The notes under the pieces are model-generated. The model searched no databases and had not been told where the DNA came from. It was given only the letters and a program-made list of their open reading frames with translations. Positions 18,596 to 33,698 of a DNA stretch of 44,115 bases are shown here, piece after piece (positions within the stretch are counted from its first letter, which is position 1; each line of letters starts with the position of its first letter). This DNA comes from Acidobacteriota bacterium (GTDB taxonomy: Bacteria > Acidobacteriota > Terriglobia > UBA7540), in contig CADDZJ010000022.1 of NCBI GenBank assembly GCA_902812415.1, positions 1 through 44,115 on the forward strand, read 5' to 3'. Both the position numbers and the translations under genes were made by a program.

Positions 18596-20017
18596 TCACG
18601 GCTTCACGACCTTCATCGGAATGCCAAAGGGCGCAAGCTGCTGATGGATGGCATTCTCATCTCCAACAGCCACAATGGTAACGCGGCCCGCAGGGAAATA
18701 CTTGGCTCCTGCCGCTTGAACTTCCTGTAACGTCACCTTTTGAATTTTTTCGCTTTCCTGCCCGATTTCTTCGGGCGGCAAACCATCCACCCACAACGAG
18801 GCTAACTTTCGGGCCACGGCAGCCTGGAGTTGATAGGCGATGGCTCGCGTTCCCACCAGATACCGCTTGGCCCGCTCGACTTCCTGCTCCTCGGGCGGCG
18901 TGGTCGCCATGCGGTTGAGTTGAACGAGAATCTCGTTGAAACACGCGCCGGTCACTTCATTGCGCACATTGACCATCGTTTCAACGGTGGTCGCATCCTT
19001 CCGCACCCGCAGAAGGGAGTGTGGTGAATAGGAATAGCCCTTCTGTTCCCGAATGTCATTGATCAGCCGAGACCCGAACATGCCACCGTAGATGGCATTG
19101 GCCACTTCGGTGGCCGCAAAGGCCGGGTCACGTTCGAGAGGGCCAAAAGCGCCGAGTATGAAAGTAGTCTGGACGGAGTGCGGCCGCGCCAGCACAAACA
19201 CGGCATGCGGATTATCTTGGGCCGGGGGCTCGGTGGATTCGACCGGCATGTCCTGGGGCGCAGTCCATTGGCCGAAATACTTCTCGACAAGGCTGGTGAA
19301 GCTTGAGGGTTGGAGATCCCCTACGGCCACGAGCACCGTTTGATCGGGCCGAAACTCTTTCCTGAATAGCTCCCGGATCTCCGCCGGAGTGGCGCTGGCC
19401 AACGACTCCATCGTGGGAGAGATGATGCTGTAAGGGTGATCGCCAAAAAACGCGCGCGCGAACGCCCGCTGCGCGATGAAATTCGGGTCGGCCTCGTGGG
19501 CTTGCAAGGCATCCTGTTCGTTGCGCTTTGCCAGAGCCACTTGCGAATCGGGAAAAGTGGCGTTTTGTAGAACGTCGCTCAGAGAGGCCAGGGCAGGTTC
19601 TGTCCTGGAGGATAAAAAGCTGATGCTCAGCGTGTCCGAATCGGAAAGGGGCTGGCCTGTCAGGTCGCCGCCCACCGCCTGAAAGTCATCGGCAATCTGG
19701 CGGGCGCTGCGGGTCCTGGTGCCTTGATCGATGGTATCGAGAAGCAGGTCGGAGAGGCCCGGGCGGTCTTTCGGATCAGCCGCCCTGCCTCCCCGCACGG
19801 CGACAACAAGCGCCACCTTGGGAAAGCCGGGGCGGGGAACAAGCCATACCGTGAGGCCGTTGGAGAGCTTCTTTTGCAAGACTTGTGGCGCGTGGAACGG
19901 AACCAGAGGGCCATAAGGAGGCAAGTCCTTGGGCAAAGGCGGCGTCTGGGCAATGGCGATACACGGCAAGAAAAACAAAATCATCAAGAGCAGGAAGTGG
20001 GGCAGTGAGGGTCTCAT
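18596..20017 (-). CDS. M16 family peptidase-like protein, zinc motif absent
   Basis: A 473-residue exported protein with a signal peptide (LLLMILFFLPCIAIAQ). The fold is M16 (pitrilysin/processing-peptidase): KLSNGLTVWLVPRPGFPKVAL and the domain-2 signature RKEFRPDQTVLVAVGDL. Where active members have HxxEH this one has LSDLLLDTID, so it should be the non-catalytic partner, as in alpha-MPP or the two-gene bacterial M16 pairs. Its ATG (20017) shares one base with the TGA of the upstream peptidase (TGATG), behind AAAGGAG, so translation is coupled. An in-frame TTG one codon earlier is less likely. A role in clearing periplasmic peptides is inference. Confidence 0.92.
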   Translation of the reverse strand: MRPSLPHFLLLMILFFLPCIAIAQTPPLPKDLPPYGPLVPFHAPQVLQKKLSNGLTVWLVPRPGFPKVALVVAVRGGRAADPKDRPGLSDLLLDTIDQGTRTRSARQIADDFQAVGGDLTGQPLSDSDTLSISFLSSRTEPALASLSDVLQNATFPDSQVALAKRNEQDALQAHEADPNFIAQRAFARAFFGDHPYSIISPTMESLASATPAEIRELFRKEFRPDQTVLVAVGDLQPSSFTSLVEKYFGQWTAPQDMPVESTEPPAQDNPHAVFVLARPHSVQTTFILGAFGPLERDPAFAATEVANAIYGGMFGSRLINDIREQKGYSYSPHSLLRVRKDATTVETMVNVRNEVTGACFNEILVQLNRMATTPPEEQEVERAKRYLVGTRAIAYQLQAAVARKLASLWVDGLPPEEIGQESEKIQKVTLQEVQAAGAKYFPAGRVTIVAVGDENAIHQQLAPFGIPMKVVKP

Positions 20018-21408
20018 CAATGCGCTCCTTTCGCGCCGGCCTCTTGCGTATGGGCCAGCGAAGCGGGGACACGATTAATAATGGTGCGATTCCCGGGCGC
20101 CAGATATTTTCGGGCGAAGGCCTCGATTTCATCGGAGGTCACCTGCGAGATTTCCGCCGGAATTTCGTTCACCCGATTGGGGTTGCCGCCAAACAGAGTG
20201 AGTTGGCCCAGAATGGAAGCGCGCGTTACCGGCATTTCCAACTGCGAATACCAGTCCGAACGCATCTTGGTGAGAACTCTTTCCAGTTCGGCCTGCGAAA
20301 CTCCTTTCGTCGCCAGGTCTTCGATGACCTCGTCGTATGCCTTCAATACCTGCTGCTCCGTCACCTTGGGCGGATAATAAATCAGGGAAGTCATCAGGGT
20401 CGGCCCGCCGTACGCATAGGGGCTTCCCAACGGCCAATTAACCCCGCCGTCAACTTCTAAGGCCACTTCTTTTTGTTTGACCAGCACTTGATACAGCCGC
20501 GATGCCTGACCGTTATGAAGGATTTCGCCGACCACCGCGCCGGCAATCGCATCGGTGGAATCGGCTGGCGGCATGCGATAACCGATGGCAACGGCCGGAA
20601 CTCGCGCCAGCTTGTCATACTCCACAGATCGGCGTTCGGCGGTTTGCGGTGCTTCGGAAACATCCGGTTTGGGCGGCACATCGTGTCGCGGAATGGAACC
20701 AAAATATTTTTCCGCTTTCGCAAAAACTTCTTCCGGCGTCACGTCGCCCACGACGGAGAGCACCGCGTTGTTGGGCACGTAATATAGCTCGAAGAAATTT
20801 CGCACATCCTGAAGGCTTGCCGCATCGAGGTCGTCAAAATCGCCGTAGAAGTTATGCGCATTGGGATATTTATCAAAAGCTTTTTGAGGCAGGTCCAGCC
20901 AGAAGAAGCCACCGTAGGGTTGGTTCAGAATGTTGACCCGCACCTCCTCTTTCACCACCTTGCGCTGATTATCCAGATTCGCCTGCGAAAAGTTGAGGGC
21001 TTTCATGCGATCCGCCTCAAGCCACAGCACGGGATCGAGAGCGGAGATGGGCGCGGTTTCAATGTATTCCGTAAAATCGAACCGGGTATCTCCGTTATCC
21101 CAGCCGCCGCCGCCTTCAATGACGCGATCAAAAACGCCTTTGGGGGCGTCGGGCGTGCCTTCAAACATCATGTGCTCGAAGAGATGCGCAAACCCCGTGC
21201 GGCCTTTAGGCTCAAGGCGAAAACCAATGCCGTAGGTGACGCAGAGCCCGAAAGTTGGAGCTGAATCATCCCGCGAGACGACGACTCGAAGACCGTTGCT
21301 GAGCGTCTTTTCGGCCACAGGGACGTTCCACTCCTTGGAAGCGGTGGCTGATCCCGGGGCGGTTAGTGGGATCAGAAGAAGCAGGTAGACCATCGGCAGG
21401 AATTTCAT
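20017..21408 (-). CDS. M16 family zinc metallopeptidase
   Basis: The catalytic member of the pair, 463 residues. A signal peptide (MKFLPMVYLLLLIPLTAPGSATA) directs it to the periplasm. The inverted zinc motif is H75-LFE-H79 (AHLFEHMMFEGT), with the distal glutamate at E154/E155 in KVVKEEVR, the correct spacing. The second half (about 240-455) is the usual M16_C domain with AIGYRMPPADS and a Tyr-Gly pair (YAYGGP). The start is an ATG behind TTGAGGAGAGC. It is followed directly by the inactive homologue, and the two likely form a heterodimeric clamshell protease. The substrate is unknown; oligopeptides are typical. Confidence 0.95.
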   Translation of the reverse strand: MKFLPMVYLLLLIPLTAPGSATASKEWNVPVAEKTLSNGLRVVVSRDDSAPTFGLCVTYGIGFRLEPKGRTGFAHLFEHMMFEGTPDAPKGVFDRVIEGGGGWDNGDTRFDFTEYIETAPISALDPVLWLEADRMKALNFSQANLDNQRKVVKEEVRVNILNQPYGGFFWLDLPQKAFDKYPNAHNFYGDFDDLDAASLQDVRNFFELYYVPNNAVLSVVGDVTPEEVFAKAEKYFGSIPRHDVPPKPDVSEAPQTAERRSVEYDKLARVPAVAIGYRMPPADSTDAIAGAVVGEILHNGQASRLYQVLVKQKEVALEVDGGVNWPLGSPYAYGGPTLMTSLIYYPPKVTEQQVLKAYDEVIEDLATKGVSQAELERVLTKMRSDWYSQLEMPVTRASILGQLTLFGGNPNRVNEIPAEISQVTSDEIEAFARKYLAPGNRTIINRVPASLAHTQEAGAKGAH

Positions 21409-28916: not shown

Positions 28917-29744
28917 GTGCATCCTAATCTTAGTCTAACGGACTGGCTCAATCTTTCTATCCTCGTGGGCATCTTCCTGACGAATCTAGTTGTCCTGAAT
29001 GCCCTGTCCAGGAAAGCAGTGAGTGATGCAAATGTTCGGGATATCTGCATGGCTCATGTCCTTTGGACGGCAAACTGGCTCGTGTGGTTTTTTGCGTGGC
29101 TCGTTCACTTCAAGAGCGCGAACCTGATTATTGCGGACTTGCTGGATGATATCGGCGCCTTTTTTCTGATCGCTTTTGCCATAACCTTTGCCGGAGGATT
29201 CAGCAAACTGAAGGCCTATTGGTTTGTGATTGCGGGCTTTTTCATCATGGATGTGGTCTGGCTGGGGAGCGCCAGCGTCGTGACGCCGGATTCGGTTAAC
29301 CTGGTGTCAGCTTCGAGTTTAAAGGAGTGGGTGTCAGGTCTAGGCGGCGTAAGCCCTGAAGATATCATTTTTCGCCGCACCATTGTCTTCGCACCTTCGC
29401 TTTGCCTGGTGATTGTGGCGTTGGGGCTGGTTGCCTGGTCCTTCATTGAGCGCTTCAAGGAGTGGCAACTGAGCGCTCTCATGGCTTTGCTGGCCGGAGT
29501 TTATGCGATCCTGCACGTCGCCCTTTTTCAAGCCAACTTTTTCATTCCGGCGCTCAACTTTCATCAGCACCTGGAATTTCTGTTTTTGGCTTGGCGTGTA
29601 GTCCTTGTTCTGCTGTATTCATTTCTGATACTGAGTTCCGCCGGAATTGAAATACAGTCGCAGCGCATTATCGCCGTGCTGGGCACTGTAGGATCGGTGG
29701 TTTCTACGATTGTCGCCCTCAGAAGCTTCATTTTGGGAAAATAG
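28917..29744 (+). CDS. Polytopic membrane protein of unknown function
   Basis: A 275-residue inner-membrane protein with about eight hydrophobic helices: 12-28, 45-63, 68-92, 98-117, a break around 118-148, 153-175, 183-205, 215-238 and 250-270. The loop at 118-148 (VVTPDSVNLVSASSLKEWVSGLGG) probably faces the periplasm. I recognise no family. The start is a GTG at 28917 behind AAGGAG. Its TAG lies 5 bp before the start of the next gene, which encodes an exported proteasome-like protein, so the two are very likely one transcript and may act together. Confidence 0.75.
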   Translation: MHPNLSLTDWLNLSILVGIFLTNLVVLNALSRKAVSDANVRDICMAHVLWTANWLVWFFAWLVHFKSANLIIADLLDDIGAFFLIAFAITFAGGFSKLKAYWFVIAGFFIMDVVWLGSASVVTPDSVNLVSASSLKEWVSGLGGVSPEDIIFRRTIVFAPSLCLVIVALGLVAWSFIERFKEWQLSALMALLAGVYAILHVALFQANFFIPALNFHQHLEFLFLAWRVVLVLLYSFLILSSAGIEIQSQRIIAVLGTVGSVVSTIVALRSFILGK

Positions 29745-29749
29745 GAAGA

Positions 29750-30607
29750 TTGAAGATTCTTATCCTGCCGCTCGCGTGTCTGTTAACGATTTTGATGACC
29801 AGCGCTTCTGCCACAATCGCAAGCTCCCTGCCAGAGATTGGGAGCGTGGTCATTGTGTTATATTCCCGCAATGAAATCGTCATGGCGGCAGACAGTCGAG
29901 TGGTCAACGAGCAGACGGGCCAGTATCGAGACGACTACTGTAAGATCGTCACGCCCGGCGCCGGGTTTATCTATGGAGCGGCAGGAATTACAGAAACTGC
30001 CGGAGCATTCGACGCCGCCGGGTTAGTCAGGCGATTATTTCGTGAAGAGGGTCGCAGCTCCAAAGTTGGGTTTGTGCAAGAGATCGCAATGAAATGGGCT
30101 GATGCGATGGAACAGAACCTTGCAAGGCTGCCTTCCAACCGCCTGAGGCAATCTGCAGGGGAAGGCCGAGGAGCGGGTGCGCTTAACTGCGCGATGTTTG
30201 CCGGAGTCGAGCCTTCAGGCGAGCTTGCTTTGGTTCGCGCTCGGCTGTTTTATCGAGGCATTTCTGGTGACGGGATTCCCAAGGTCGCTGCGGAAATCAC
30301 TCCGATCCCGCTGGATAAGCCTGGCATCAACATTGCGGGATGCGGCGATGTGGATGTCCTGGAAAGCATCGTTCCGCCGCGAACCGCATGGGCGAAATCG
30401 GAAGTGGAGCGGTGGCGGCGCTTCACGGGCGATGCCAAAGCCAAAATCGCGATTCGGCTGGTGCAGTTGACAATCGACCGCGAGAAGCCAAGACGGTTTG
30501 GTTTCCAGGAGATTGTTCCGGTCGGCGGTGAGATCGACGCGGTGGAAATCGTTCCAGAGAGACCTGTGAAATGGATTCAGCGCAAAGCAAACTGTCCGGC
30601 TGAATGA
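29750..30607 (+). CDS. Exported protein resembling proteasome/HslV Ntn hydrolases
   Basis: A 285-residue protein with an N-terminal signal (ILILPLACLLTILMTSASATIA). The segment after it, EIGSVVIVLYSRNEIVMAADSRVV, follows the first two strands of 20S beta subunits and HslV. Taking S32 as position 1, D48 falls on Asp17 and K65 (DYCKIV) on Lys33/34, and Gly31 is the Gly that precedes the proteasome cleavage site. The middle helices (GFVQEIAMKWADAMEQNLARL) fit HslV helix 2. A later CGDVD and a C-terminal FGFQEIVPVGGEIDAV are not assigned. The start is a TTG at 29750 with AGGA close by. The family call is by eye; whether it is a hydrolase is unknown. Confidence 0.65.
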   Translation: MKILILPLACLLTILMTSASATIASSLPEIGSVVIVLYSRNEIVMAADSRVVNEQTGQYRDDYCKIVTPGAGFIYGAAGITETAGAFDAAGLVRRLFREEGRSSKVGFVQEIAMKWADAMEQNLARLPSNRLRQSAGEGRGAGALNCAMFAGVEPSGELALVRARLFYRGISGDGIPKVAAEITPIPLDKPGINIAGCGDVDVLESIVPPRTAWAKSEVERWRRFTGDAKAKIAIRLVQLTIDREKPRRFGFQEIVPVGGEIDAVEIVPERPVKWIQRKANCPAE

Positions 30608-30854: not shown

Positions 30855-33698
30855 TTACCGCGGGCAGCCGCGCACAACAGTCTTGTTTGCTTTCTGTTGC
30901 ATCTCGCGGCGAATTATCATTGGATCATCCAGCGGGGCAGATGGCGGCGCGGCAACCGGCTTAAGCCCTTTTTCGATGACTTTTGCGGGATCGAAAACGC
31001 GGAGATCGGAAGGAATAGCTTCGTAAGGCGCAAAATCAGGAACATCGGTAAAGCGGTCGGAAAGATCAGTCGCGGCTGCGTCGTATTGATTCAGCCATGG
31101 CAGGCCGAAAATCAGGTCGAAGGTTTTCAGGATACTCATAAAATCTGCATGCACGTGGGAGACGGCGCGACGCGAATACGGGCTGATCACCAGCAGAATG
31201 CTGCGATGCGCGTCCACGTGGTCCGTGCCCGACTGTGCGTCGTCTTCGGTTACGAAAATGGCCATGTGTTTCCAATACCGGCTATGAGAAAAAATTTCGA
31301 TCAGCTTTCCGAGCGCCAGATCGTTATCAGCCACGTAGGAAGCCCGGAAGGGATAACCTTCTGAGGGTCGCGGCTTGGCGGTATGATCCTGCGGCAGCCA
31401 CATGGAAATAAACTGCGGCAGCGGCTCACGGCCGCTGGCGTAACGACTCTGCCACTCGCTCATGAACTGTTGAAAGCGATATTGGTCCGAGATATTGGTA
31501 TTGAAGTTCGGGTAGATGCGCGAAGTGTTTTCAAACAACGGCTCAGGCATGGGAATGTTCACCGATTCGCGGACGCCAGTAGGTTCCATGTCGGAATCTT
31601 CGTCGTAGCCTGCCAACTCGAGACCTTCCCCGTAATTGCGGAAGCTTATATGATGCCGGGCCAGATGTTCCCAGAGCGAGCCGGCTTCGAGGTAATCCTC
31701 GGGCCAGGGGCTCGTTGAGCCGATTTCAAGCCGTCCGGGCGCCTTTGAGTCCGCCTTCCAGTCGAATTCCCCTCCGTAGGCAGCTGGCCAGCTCGTCTCA
31801 AAGAGGACATTCGGATAATTACCCACCAGCCAGTGATGGCCATCCACGGAGACGTCCGAATCGACATAAAAATTATCACTGATGCCGAAGCGTTCAGCCA
31901 GCGCGTGCGCATTTGGCGTCACCCGGACATCGCGGAAAGCCAGACCCAGAGACTTGTTTCCGACGCACGCCTCGTCGCCGTATTCGGCAAGATTCGGATC
32001 GCCATTCACCGCCTCTTCGTTCACTTCTTTCAGATCTCCAAACACCTGGTCGAAGGTGCGGTTTTCCCTGATGATAAAAATGACGTGACGAATCTTTTCG
32101 CTGGCTATGTCGGGCGGAGGAATGGGGAAATCCGGCGAGCGGCGGTCGGGGTGAGCCGGAGTCAGGAACCCGTTGTTTGCCAGCACCTGCTCTGTTTCAG
32201 CGCTGAGCGGGGAAGTCAATTGGGACCCTGTGATTGCTCGCTGGTTTGCGGTTTCGGCAGAGGGATGAAGAAGGTTGATGATGGAAACTGTTCCTTTGGT
32301 GATGTCCCCGATATAGGTACCCTCGGGACCTTCGTGGAAATCCGGCCCGCCGTTCGGACCAGCGCCGAAGCCCTTGGCGTTCGCTACATAGAGAGTTTTA
32401 CCATTAGGACTGAGCGCCACGCGCGCCGGAAACCAGCCTGTAGGAATGTAGCCCACTACCTCGTCATTTCGCGTATCGACCACAGCCACAGCATTGATTC
32501 CAGCACAAGCGGCGTAAAGCGTGCGACCACCGGGGCTGAGCGCCAGACCAAATGGCAGCACGCCCCGCAGTCCTTTCACCGCCGGAGCGGGTTCGAGCAG
32601 GATCGTTTTCTGGATTTGACCGCTGAGCGCATCGATGACGGTAATGCTATCCTGACTGGCATTGCTGACATAAACTCGCTGCTGTTTGGCTACAATGCCG
32701 CATGGGCTGCTGCCCCCTACGGACCCGGGCCCAACTGGAATGCCGGTTCGCACCTTGAACTTAACCGCGGGCTGCGCTGGATTCGAGACATCAATCGCCC
32801 AGATGGAATTTGAAAGCAATGTGTTGGGGCTGCCCAGGCCGGGAATCGTTCTTCCCTCAACGATGGCGCCTTGCTCGGCCTGCGGCGACGGGAAACCAAA
32901 GGGGGGAAAAGTCAGCCCCGTCGCGCGAGGATGTTTCGGATTATATCCAGGCACGAGTGAATAGCGGAACATTCCCGCATTGGAAACGTAAAGGGTATGC
33001 CCACCGGGCGCGAGTGCGATCCCAAAAGGCAAATAACCCACCGGCTGGCTGGCGATGATTTTTCTCGACTGTGTGCTGAAGATCACTAACCGAAAATGAG
33101 CGATGTCCAGAGCGTAGAGATGAAGGCCGTCGGGGGAAAGCTTCAGATCTCCAGTCAGGCTGTCGTGAAATTCCGAGCCACCGAAGCTTCCGTTCAGATT
33201 CAACTCGCCTATGCGGTGGCGCCGCCGAAGGTCAAAAATCCCAATCTCGCCATTGTCGCCCTCTGACACATAGGCGGTCCGATTATCGGGAGCAATCGCT
33301 GCGCCAAGATAGACGCTCTTGGGATCAGCATTGGAAGGCTTGAAACCAGGAGGAATCTGCACGACCCGGGGATGCGAGCTTCCAAGGCGATTGATGATGG
33401 AGATGGAGAACGGCGCGGTGCCGCTGTTTACCGTGATTAACGTTTTGCCGTTGGGACTGAGCGCGAGGCCATAGGGATGCGGTGCCACCGTCACCTGAAC
33501 GCCACGCGGCGTGATCAGCCGGCCGTTGGGGAGAATCGTCGCTGCGTACCGATTAATGTGGGTGGCCCGCGTTCCGGCAGGCGCTTCGAGCGCGGCTCTC
33601 CCGCCCACCTGAAGCGCATTGCCTTTTGGCGACGCTGGCGAGAAGAGGCGCATGAAAAGTACGGTGAGAAGCAGCAACCACAGCCAGCGAATCGTCAT
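30855..33698 (-). CDS. Beta-propeller and phosphoesterase fusion protein
   Basis: A secreted protein of 947 residues. After a hydrophobic signal (WLWLLLLTVLFMRLF) come about ten YVTN-type repeats (PHPYGLALSPNGKTLITVNSG; LPFGLALSPGGRTLYAACAG; WFPARVALSPNGKTLYVANAKG), a beta-propeller over residues 50-480. The C-terminal half (about 540-930) is a phosphoesterase of the alkaline-phosphatase superfamily (phospholipase C/AcpA type): ENRTFDQVFGD with the nucleophile-bearing loop, SVDGHHWLVGNY, and the metal site in TEDDAQSGTDHVDAHRS. Substrate is unknown; a phosphodiester or phospholipid head group is plausible. The start is an ATG behind AGGAGA. It closes the minus-strand block that begins with the AraC gene, 108 bp after the alcohol dehydrogenase. 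Confidence 0.92.
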   Translation of the reverse strand: MTIRWLWLLLLTVLFMRLFSPASPKGNALQVGGRAALEAPAGTRATHINRYAATILPNGRLITPRGVQVTVAPHPYGLALSPNGKTLITVNSGTAPFSISIINRLGSSHPRVVQIPPGFKPSNADPKSVYLGAAIAPDNRTAYVSEGDNGEIGIFDLRRRHRIGELNLNGSFGGSEFHDSLTGDLKLSPDGLHLYALDIAHFRLVIFSTQSRKIIASQPVGYLPFGIALAPGGHTLYVSNAGMFRYSLVPGYNPKHPRATGLTFPPFGFPSPQAEQGAIVEGRTIPGLGSPNTLLSNSIWAIDVSNPAQPAVKFKVRTGIPVGPGSVGGSSPCGIVAKQQRVYVSNASQDSITVIDALSGQIQKTILLEPAPAVKGLRGVLPFGLALSPGGRTLYAACAGINAVAVVDTRNDEVVGYIPTGWFPARVALSPNGKTLYVANAKGFGAGPNGGPDFHEGPEGTYIGDITKGTVSIINLLHPSAETANQRAITGSQLTSPLSAETEQVLANNGFLTPAHPDRRSPDFPIPPPDIASEKIRHVIFIIRENRTFDQVFGDLKEVNEEAVNGDPNLAEYGDEACVGNKSLGLAFRDVRVTPNAHALAERFGISDNFYVDSDVSVDGHHWLVGNYPNVLFETSWPAAYGGEFDWKADSKAPGRLEIGSTSPWPEDYLEAGSLWEHLARHHISFRNYGEGLELAGYDEDSDMEPTGVRESVNIPMPEPLFENTSRIYPNFNTNISDQYRFQQFMSEWQSRYASGREPLPQFISMWLPQDHTAKPRPSEGYPFRASYVADNDLALGKLIEIFSHSRYWKHMAIFVTEDDAQSGTDHVDAHRSILLVISPYSRRAVSHVHADFMSILKTFDLIFGLPWLNQYDAAATDLSDRFTDVPDFAPYEAIPSDLRVFDPAKVIEKGLKPVAAPPSAPLDDPMIIRREMQQKANKTVVRGCPR

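Follow-up and report, generated by a model that had tools for sequence, protein, structure and literature searches.

The window analysed here is the whole 44,115-nt stretch of contig CADDZJ010000022.1 (positions 1 to 44,115, forward strand; assembly GCA_902812415.1) from an Acidobacteriota bacterium of the class Terriglobia. An open reading frame on its + strand, present as one copy in the genome, encodes a 285-aa protein that the initial annotation had put forward as an exported proteasome-like Ntn hydrolase with Ser in place of the catalytic Thr. The frame, its signal-peptide-like N-terminus and its Gly31-Ser32 pair are in the sequence as described there. The gene, its parts and the gene before it are as follows.

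28917..29744, + strand: upstream gene for a 275-aa hydrophobic membrane protein, ending 5 nt before the gene
29750..30607, + strand: whole gene, 285 aa, TTG start (open reading frame list and translation)
29750..29812, + strand: predicted Sec signal peptide, residues 1-21 (MK, hydrophobic core, SASA), from the sequence, homologues likewise
29813..29842, + strand: predicted short propeptide TIASSLPEIG, residues 22-31, with Gly(-1) last (G31 invariant in 6 of 6 aligned)
29843..30604, + strand: mature domain, 254 aa, predicted proteasome-beta-like Ntn fold (profile and fold searches)
29843..29845, + strand: Ser32, mature residue 1, predicted nucleophile (Thr or Ser in 38 of 38 members and 15 of 15 held-out frames)
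29891..29893, + strand: D48, Asp17 equivalent (D in 38 of 38)
29939..29944, + strand: C64-K65, with K65 as Lys33 equivalent (residue 34 here) behind a conserved Cys (K 38 of 38, C 37 of 38)
29984..29986, + strand: G79, Gly47 equivalent, putative oxyanion hole (Gly in 32 of 38)
30188..30190, + strand: C147 (mature C116), which may form a disulfide with C198; also present in L002, the nearest relative
30341..30343, + strand: C198 (mature C167), putatively paired with C147
30521..30529, + strand: VGG motif, residues 258-260, ahead of the last strands (V 35 of 38, first G 36 of 38)
30593..30595, + strand: C282 (mature C251), a C-terminal Cys that may be bonded to C64 in a disulfide (Cys in 36 of 38)

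The protein begins MKILILPLACLLTILMTSASA, which reads as a signal peptide: MK, a hydrophobic core (10-mer with a mean KD of 3.07) and SASA precede TIASSLPEIG and S32. The putative signal-peptide cut falls after A21, with A24 as an alternative. Gly31 is encoded by ggg (29840-29842) and Ser32 by agc (29843-29845). Counting S32 as residue 1, D48 is residue 17, as had been claimed. K65, proposed as the Lys33 equivalent, is the conserved Lys, although its number is 34 instead of 33, the stretch that separates it from D17 being longer by one residue.

The gene is perhaps co-transcribed with that of the upstream membrane protein. Sought as a conserved operon partner, the latter was found in 1 of 61 genomes, its own, and the surroundings differ in all the loci compared (the window, L023, L024, L090 and L091), with no conserved neighbour. 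Further along the window, 30855-33698 encodes a protein of 947 aa in which Pfam recognises beta-propeller repeats and a phosphoesterase domain, and 18596-21408 holds two adjacent genes, the second alone with an HxxEH motif by eye, which presumably resemble an M16-type peptidase pair. A separate HslV-like gene is present in the same genome, and a PF00227 protein scores over the cut-off in 98 of 101 genomes of the class, this one included; the gene under study is, therefore, an addition and not a replacement. Searches with PF00227 in this class also retrieved cytosolic-looking proteasome homologues (L086-L089), whose frames are 311-350 aa long; two or three of them begin MTIA.

We searched 101 genomes, including that of the window, with the window protein and obtained matches at E 0.01 or better in 8, of which 6 (again counting the window) are full-length open frames and 2 are noise. 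The candidates L007, L008 and L009, whose stop-to-stop frames span 67, 48 and 61 aa and are unlike the family, were rejected as noise. Profile searches, which covered Acidobacteriota only, matched 12 out of 396 genomes at the level of the phylum (an improved profile, used at 1e-8, matched 11 out of 396). Within the class, 39 out of 399 genomes matched at E 1e-11 or better and 55 out of 399 at 1e-3, the latter tally being inflated by at least two weak matches (G047:C25 and G488:C36) that are PF00227/HslV-like genes. The final set consists of 37 relatives and the window protein (38 members), with 15 held-out frames besides, all from Acidobacteriota; according to two named records, relatives occur in Terriglobia and in Acidobacteria. 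It excludes duplicates (L010, L023, L024 and L026-L033) and the pair L019/L020, 430-450 aa cytosolic proteins that match in the C-terminal part only. The 34-row profile A10 omits L017, L036, L044 and L054, profile A13 omits L014 and L046 as well, and some tree and Cys-count steps used L044, L054 and L053 without their fused tails.

Occurrence of the family is patchy and its sequences diverge strongly, with a median end branch of 1.13 in the tree, where the window protein groups with L002 (support 100/99). No relatives were found on plasmids (queries: the window protein, L012, L015 and L037) or in viral contigs, and PADLOC gave no match. A hit of L049 to an adenine phosphoribosyltransferase model (1.2e-5, far under the model cut-off) was taken as chance. 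Some members depart from the common layout: L044, L054 and L113 carry an extra C-terminal domain of roughly 200 aa of no assigned kind; the frame of L119 (G491:C85), a Ser1 member, continues into a tail that by eye resembles a tyrosine recombinase, perhaps in a disrupted gene; and at L115 (G746:C19) two family members lie adjacent on the same strand, one with Gly and one with Ala at position -1.

Taken alone, the window protein matches no Pfam, NCBIfam (HslV models NF003964 and TIGR03692 included) or PHROGs entry and no relevant PDB sequence, so the link to the proteasome needs the family profile. A 15-row profile retrieved from the PDB yeast PUP1 at 5.1e-5, along with other proteasome chains. 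With the 34-row profile of the mature part, HslV was best (E 0.001), profile position 1 fell on chain residue 1, and the first 29 of 94 PDB sequences were all HslV, proteasome beta or BPH. An hhalign comparison with an HslV of the same class gave an E-value of 1.8e-6 over residues 1-84, residue 1 lying on Thr1. The top Pfam family was PF00227, matched by 11 of the 34 members (best 2.8e-4); 8 of the 34 matched the PHROG 'peptidase HslV family', and L012 scored E 0.014 against the HslV models, far below the cut-off. For the C-terminal VGG...W block, the match to GG...W in a proteasome beta chain is weak, and that to the block of the L019/L020 pair is clear (hhalign E 1.9e-7). Kinship with proteasomes, proposed from a single sequence, is supported by the family profiles, whose matches to proteasome beta, HslV and BPH align residue 1 with Thr1.

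The proposed fold is supported by best PDB matches to proteasome, Anbu and HslV, albeit from low-confidence models. Two AlphaFold2 models, each built from only 3 sequences, had a pLDDT of 52.0 (pTM 0.54) and 50.2 (pTM 0.51). In Foldseek, rows 1-31 for the first model were proteasome, Anbu or HslV (best 3.6e-4) and rows 1-50 for the second were proteasome (best 1.3e-3); an E-value of 0.001 or better was reached by just 2 rows with the first model and none with the second. VIA Z scores went up to 7.2 and 8.0, a level that the tool calls common. In many rows, model residues 1-250 aligned with chain residues 1-191, residue 1 on mature residue 1, and the models agree in element order (core fold S1-S11 and helix pairs H1-H4 compared, at pLDDT 50-52). 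Anbu has a long C-terminal helix, H5, whereas these models end, at low confidence, in a strand and coil.

The hallmarks of proteasome-like families are a catalytic Thr1/Ser1, Asp17, Lys33 and an oxyanion Gly47, according to PMC8665760. All are present here: in the 38 members, residue 1 is Thr (36) or Ser (2), D17 and the Lys occur in 38 out of 38, a Gly47-like Gly in 32, a Cys before the Lys in 37 and a C-terminal Cys in 36. An unanchored alignment of the six full-length members from the first search likewise keeps G31, Ser/Thr at position 32, D48, D61, C64, K65 and G79 in 6 out of 6. Position 32 reads S, S, T, T, T, T in those six, and 2 Ser and 13 Thr over 15 members. The 15 held-out frames have 13 Thr and 2 Ser, and one of them (L109) has Glu in place of Asp17. 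The Gly-Ser pair of the initial annotation (as Gly-[Ser/Thr]), D48 and K65 are, then, conserved among homologues, with Ala replacing Gly mainly where the signal peptide abuts residue 1. The annotated Ser in place of Thr holds for the window protein, and the position is Thr or Ser in 53 out of 53 sequences, but Thr is the norm (49 Thr, 4 Ser); Ser1 occurs in a minority of the family, and all four Ser1 members are of the Gly(-1) type. The 20S beta subunits have a strict Thr1 and, in yeast, a T1S mutant had 40-45% lower activity on one substrate (PMC4792962).

For the Asp166-Ser129-Ser169 network described for 20S beta subunits (PMC4792962), the Ser169 position falls, in a weak alignment, on Val258 (V in 35 of 38 members) and an Asp166 equivalent is not recognisable, so the proteasome proton relay may be missing. 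These features are also what would be expected if an exported proteasome-fold protein had lost or changed its hydrolase activity and now acted as a transferase, a protein ligase of the connectase kind or a binding protein. Connectase, a monomeric ligase within the proteasome family (PMC8665760), sets a precedent, and the gene neighbours suggest no substrate or partner. The retention of residue 1, D17, K33 and, mostly, Gly47 across very divergent sequences speaks against such a loss, although the conserved N-terminal chemistry cannot tell hydrolysis from ligation. We regard a lost or altered activity as unlikely, but as the most serious of the alternatives.

The location of the protein was assessed across the family. 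A hydrophobic 10-mer with a mean KD of 1.78 or more lies within the 45 residues before residue 1 in 36 out of 38 members, against 1,414 of 7,600 (18.6%) random 45-mers drawn from mature parts, and in many members the segment is followed by A-x-A-like ends. The residue at position -1 is Gly in 24 members, Ala in 12, Gln in 1 and Leu in 1. The distance from the end of the hydrophobic segment to residue 1 is 4-10 residues in Ala(-1) members (junctions such as AFA|TTII, VWA|TTVI and AHA|TSVV), whereas in Gly(-1) members it is mostly 10-28 residues. This association has a p-value of 2.7e-5 over the 38 members, which are related sequences and not independent samples, with too few independent phylogenetic pairs for a test; the few held-out rows alone point in the same direction (p 0.088). 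With them added, the distance is 10 or more in 26 of 30 Gly(-1) sequences and 9 or less in 15 of 16 Ala(-1) sequences. A well-supported group in the tree unites Gly (L044, L054) and Ala (L048, L052) types.

Judged from these junctions, residue 1 of Ala(-1) members should sit at the expected signal peptidase cut, as with an ordinary signal peptide; in many relatives autoprocessing would be unnecessary, because signal peptidase would itself expose residue 1. In Gly(-1) members a short propeptide would usually be left after signal peptide removal, and self-cleavage probably follows. Attack of residue 1 on the carbonyl of a preceding Gly is the autolysis chemistry of the proteasome itself (PMC4792962), and propeptides are described for proteasome beta and HslV and not for other homologues (PMC8665760). 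Three members of the wider family have no signal peptide. L013 and L022 nonetheless retain conserved cysteines (both in L013, the first, before the Lys, in L022). L106 (G428:C20), which starts Met-Thr and lacks both, is possibly a cytoplasmic version.

The cysteines bear on the same question. The mature part has an even number of them in 33 out of 38 members, and in 12 out of 38 the two present are the one before the Lys and the C-terminal one. Even numbers and a conserved pair absent from L106 would fit an oxidising compartment; as L013 and L022 have cysteines and no signal peptide, the link between cysteines and export is suggestive rather than strict. A propeptide-bearing enzyme working in the cytoplasm would require the hydrophobic N-terminus to be either part of the propeptide or the product of a mis-called start (M16, for instance, being the true one). 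The TTG start, the poorly spaced Shine-Dalgarno-like aggaag and the three signal-peptide-less members lend this some weight, while the strong hydrophobic segment at the right place in nearly every member, its A-x-A-like ends and the cysteine pattern count against it, making a cytoplasmic enzyme improbable. Least plausible of all, and largely refuted, is a chance IVMAADSR stretch in an unrelated exported protein, an idea that the lack of database matches for the single sequence might encourage, but the profile searches, the hhalign comparison, the Pfam counts and the two fold searches all lead to the proteasome family, and with one and the same register.

We, thus, favour the reading of the gene as an exported proteasome-like Ntn hydrolase whose Ser32 nucleophile is freed by self-cleavage, with a probability of roughly 0.75 for this reading as a whole. 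Sequence comparison lends good support to an exported Ntn enzyme of the proteasome-like kind; its activity and processing are predictions. After removal of the Sec signal peptide, a propeptide of about 10 residues ending in Gly31 would remain. Folding would take place outside the cytoplasm, where the disulfides C64-C282 and C147-C198 would probably form, and Ser32, activated by K65 and D48, would attack the Gly31 carbonyl and free its own N-terminus. As the nucleophile, the mature Ser1 would then attack a peptide bond or some other amide, G79 being part of the oxyanion hole. As there is no ATP-driven unfoldase outside the cytoplasm, the enzyme most likely works alone, on small or unfolded substrates. 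For the family, we give even odds to an extracytoplasmic proteasome-like branch whose catalytic N-terminus arises by self-cleavage after Gly, by signal peptidase after Ala, or by Met removal in a member that never left, or has returned to, the cytoplasm and has no Cys pair.

Penicillin and AHL acylases are exported Ntn hydrolases that work outside the cytoplasm with an N-terminal nucleophile freed by processing; the present proteins have no Pfam match to those families, are smaller and, in the low-confidence models, follow the proteasome-type order of elements. With HslV and 20S beta (PF00227) the family shares the pattern of Thr/Ser at residue 1, D17, K33 and Gly47, the strand-helix order and, in the propeptide type, the Gly before residue 1. 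It differs from them in its signal peptide, the Cys beside the catalytic Lys, the C-terminal Cys and the size of the mature part (254 aa in the window protein, about 175 aa in HslV). HslV and 20S beta also form a cytoplasmic ring with an AAA+ partner, while no neighbour is conserved at the loci compared here. Fuchs, Alva and Lupas (2021; PMC8665760) described 22 new proteasome-like families (WPH, PMI, PPH, DPH, GPH and others) that, as portrayed there, are divergent and patchy with no evident AAA+ partner, like this one; compared by description only, our family may equal one of these clusters. By that paper's description, the L019/L020 pair, which shares the C-terminal block, is PMI-like. The main text of PMC8665760 mentions no periplasm, secretion or export, and full-text literature searches returned no paper that connects proteasome-like proteins or proteasome homologues with the periplasm, with signal peptides or with Acidobacteria.

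Proteasome relatives are otherwise described as cytoplasmic machines. An exported branch, if real, would mean that the proteasome fold has been recruited outside the cytoplasm without ATP-driven unfolding, giving a proteasome-derived enzyme family adapted to work there without ATP. The family would make the generation of an N-terminal nucleophile directly testable, with self-cleavage, signal peptidase and Met removal as the routes to compare, and its natural Ser1 members beside Thr1 relatives provide a ready-made comparison for asking why the proteasome nucleophile is Thr.
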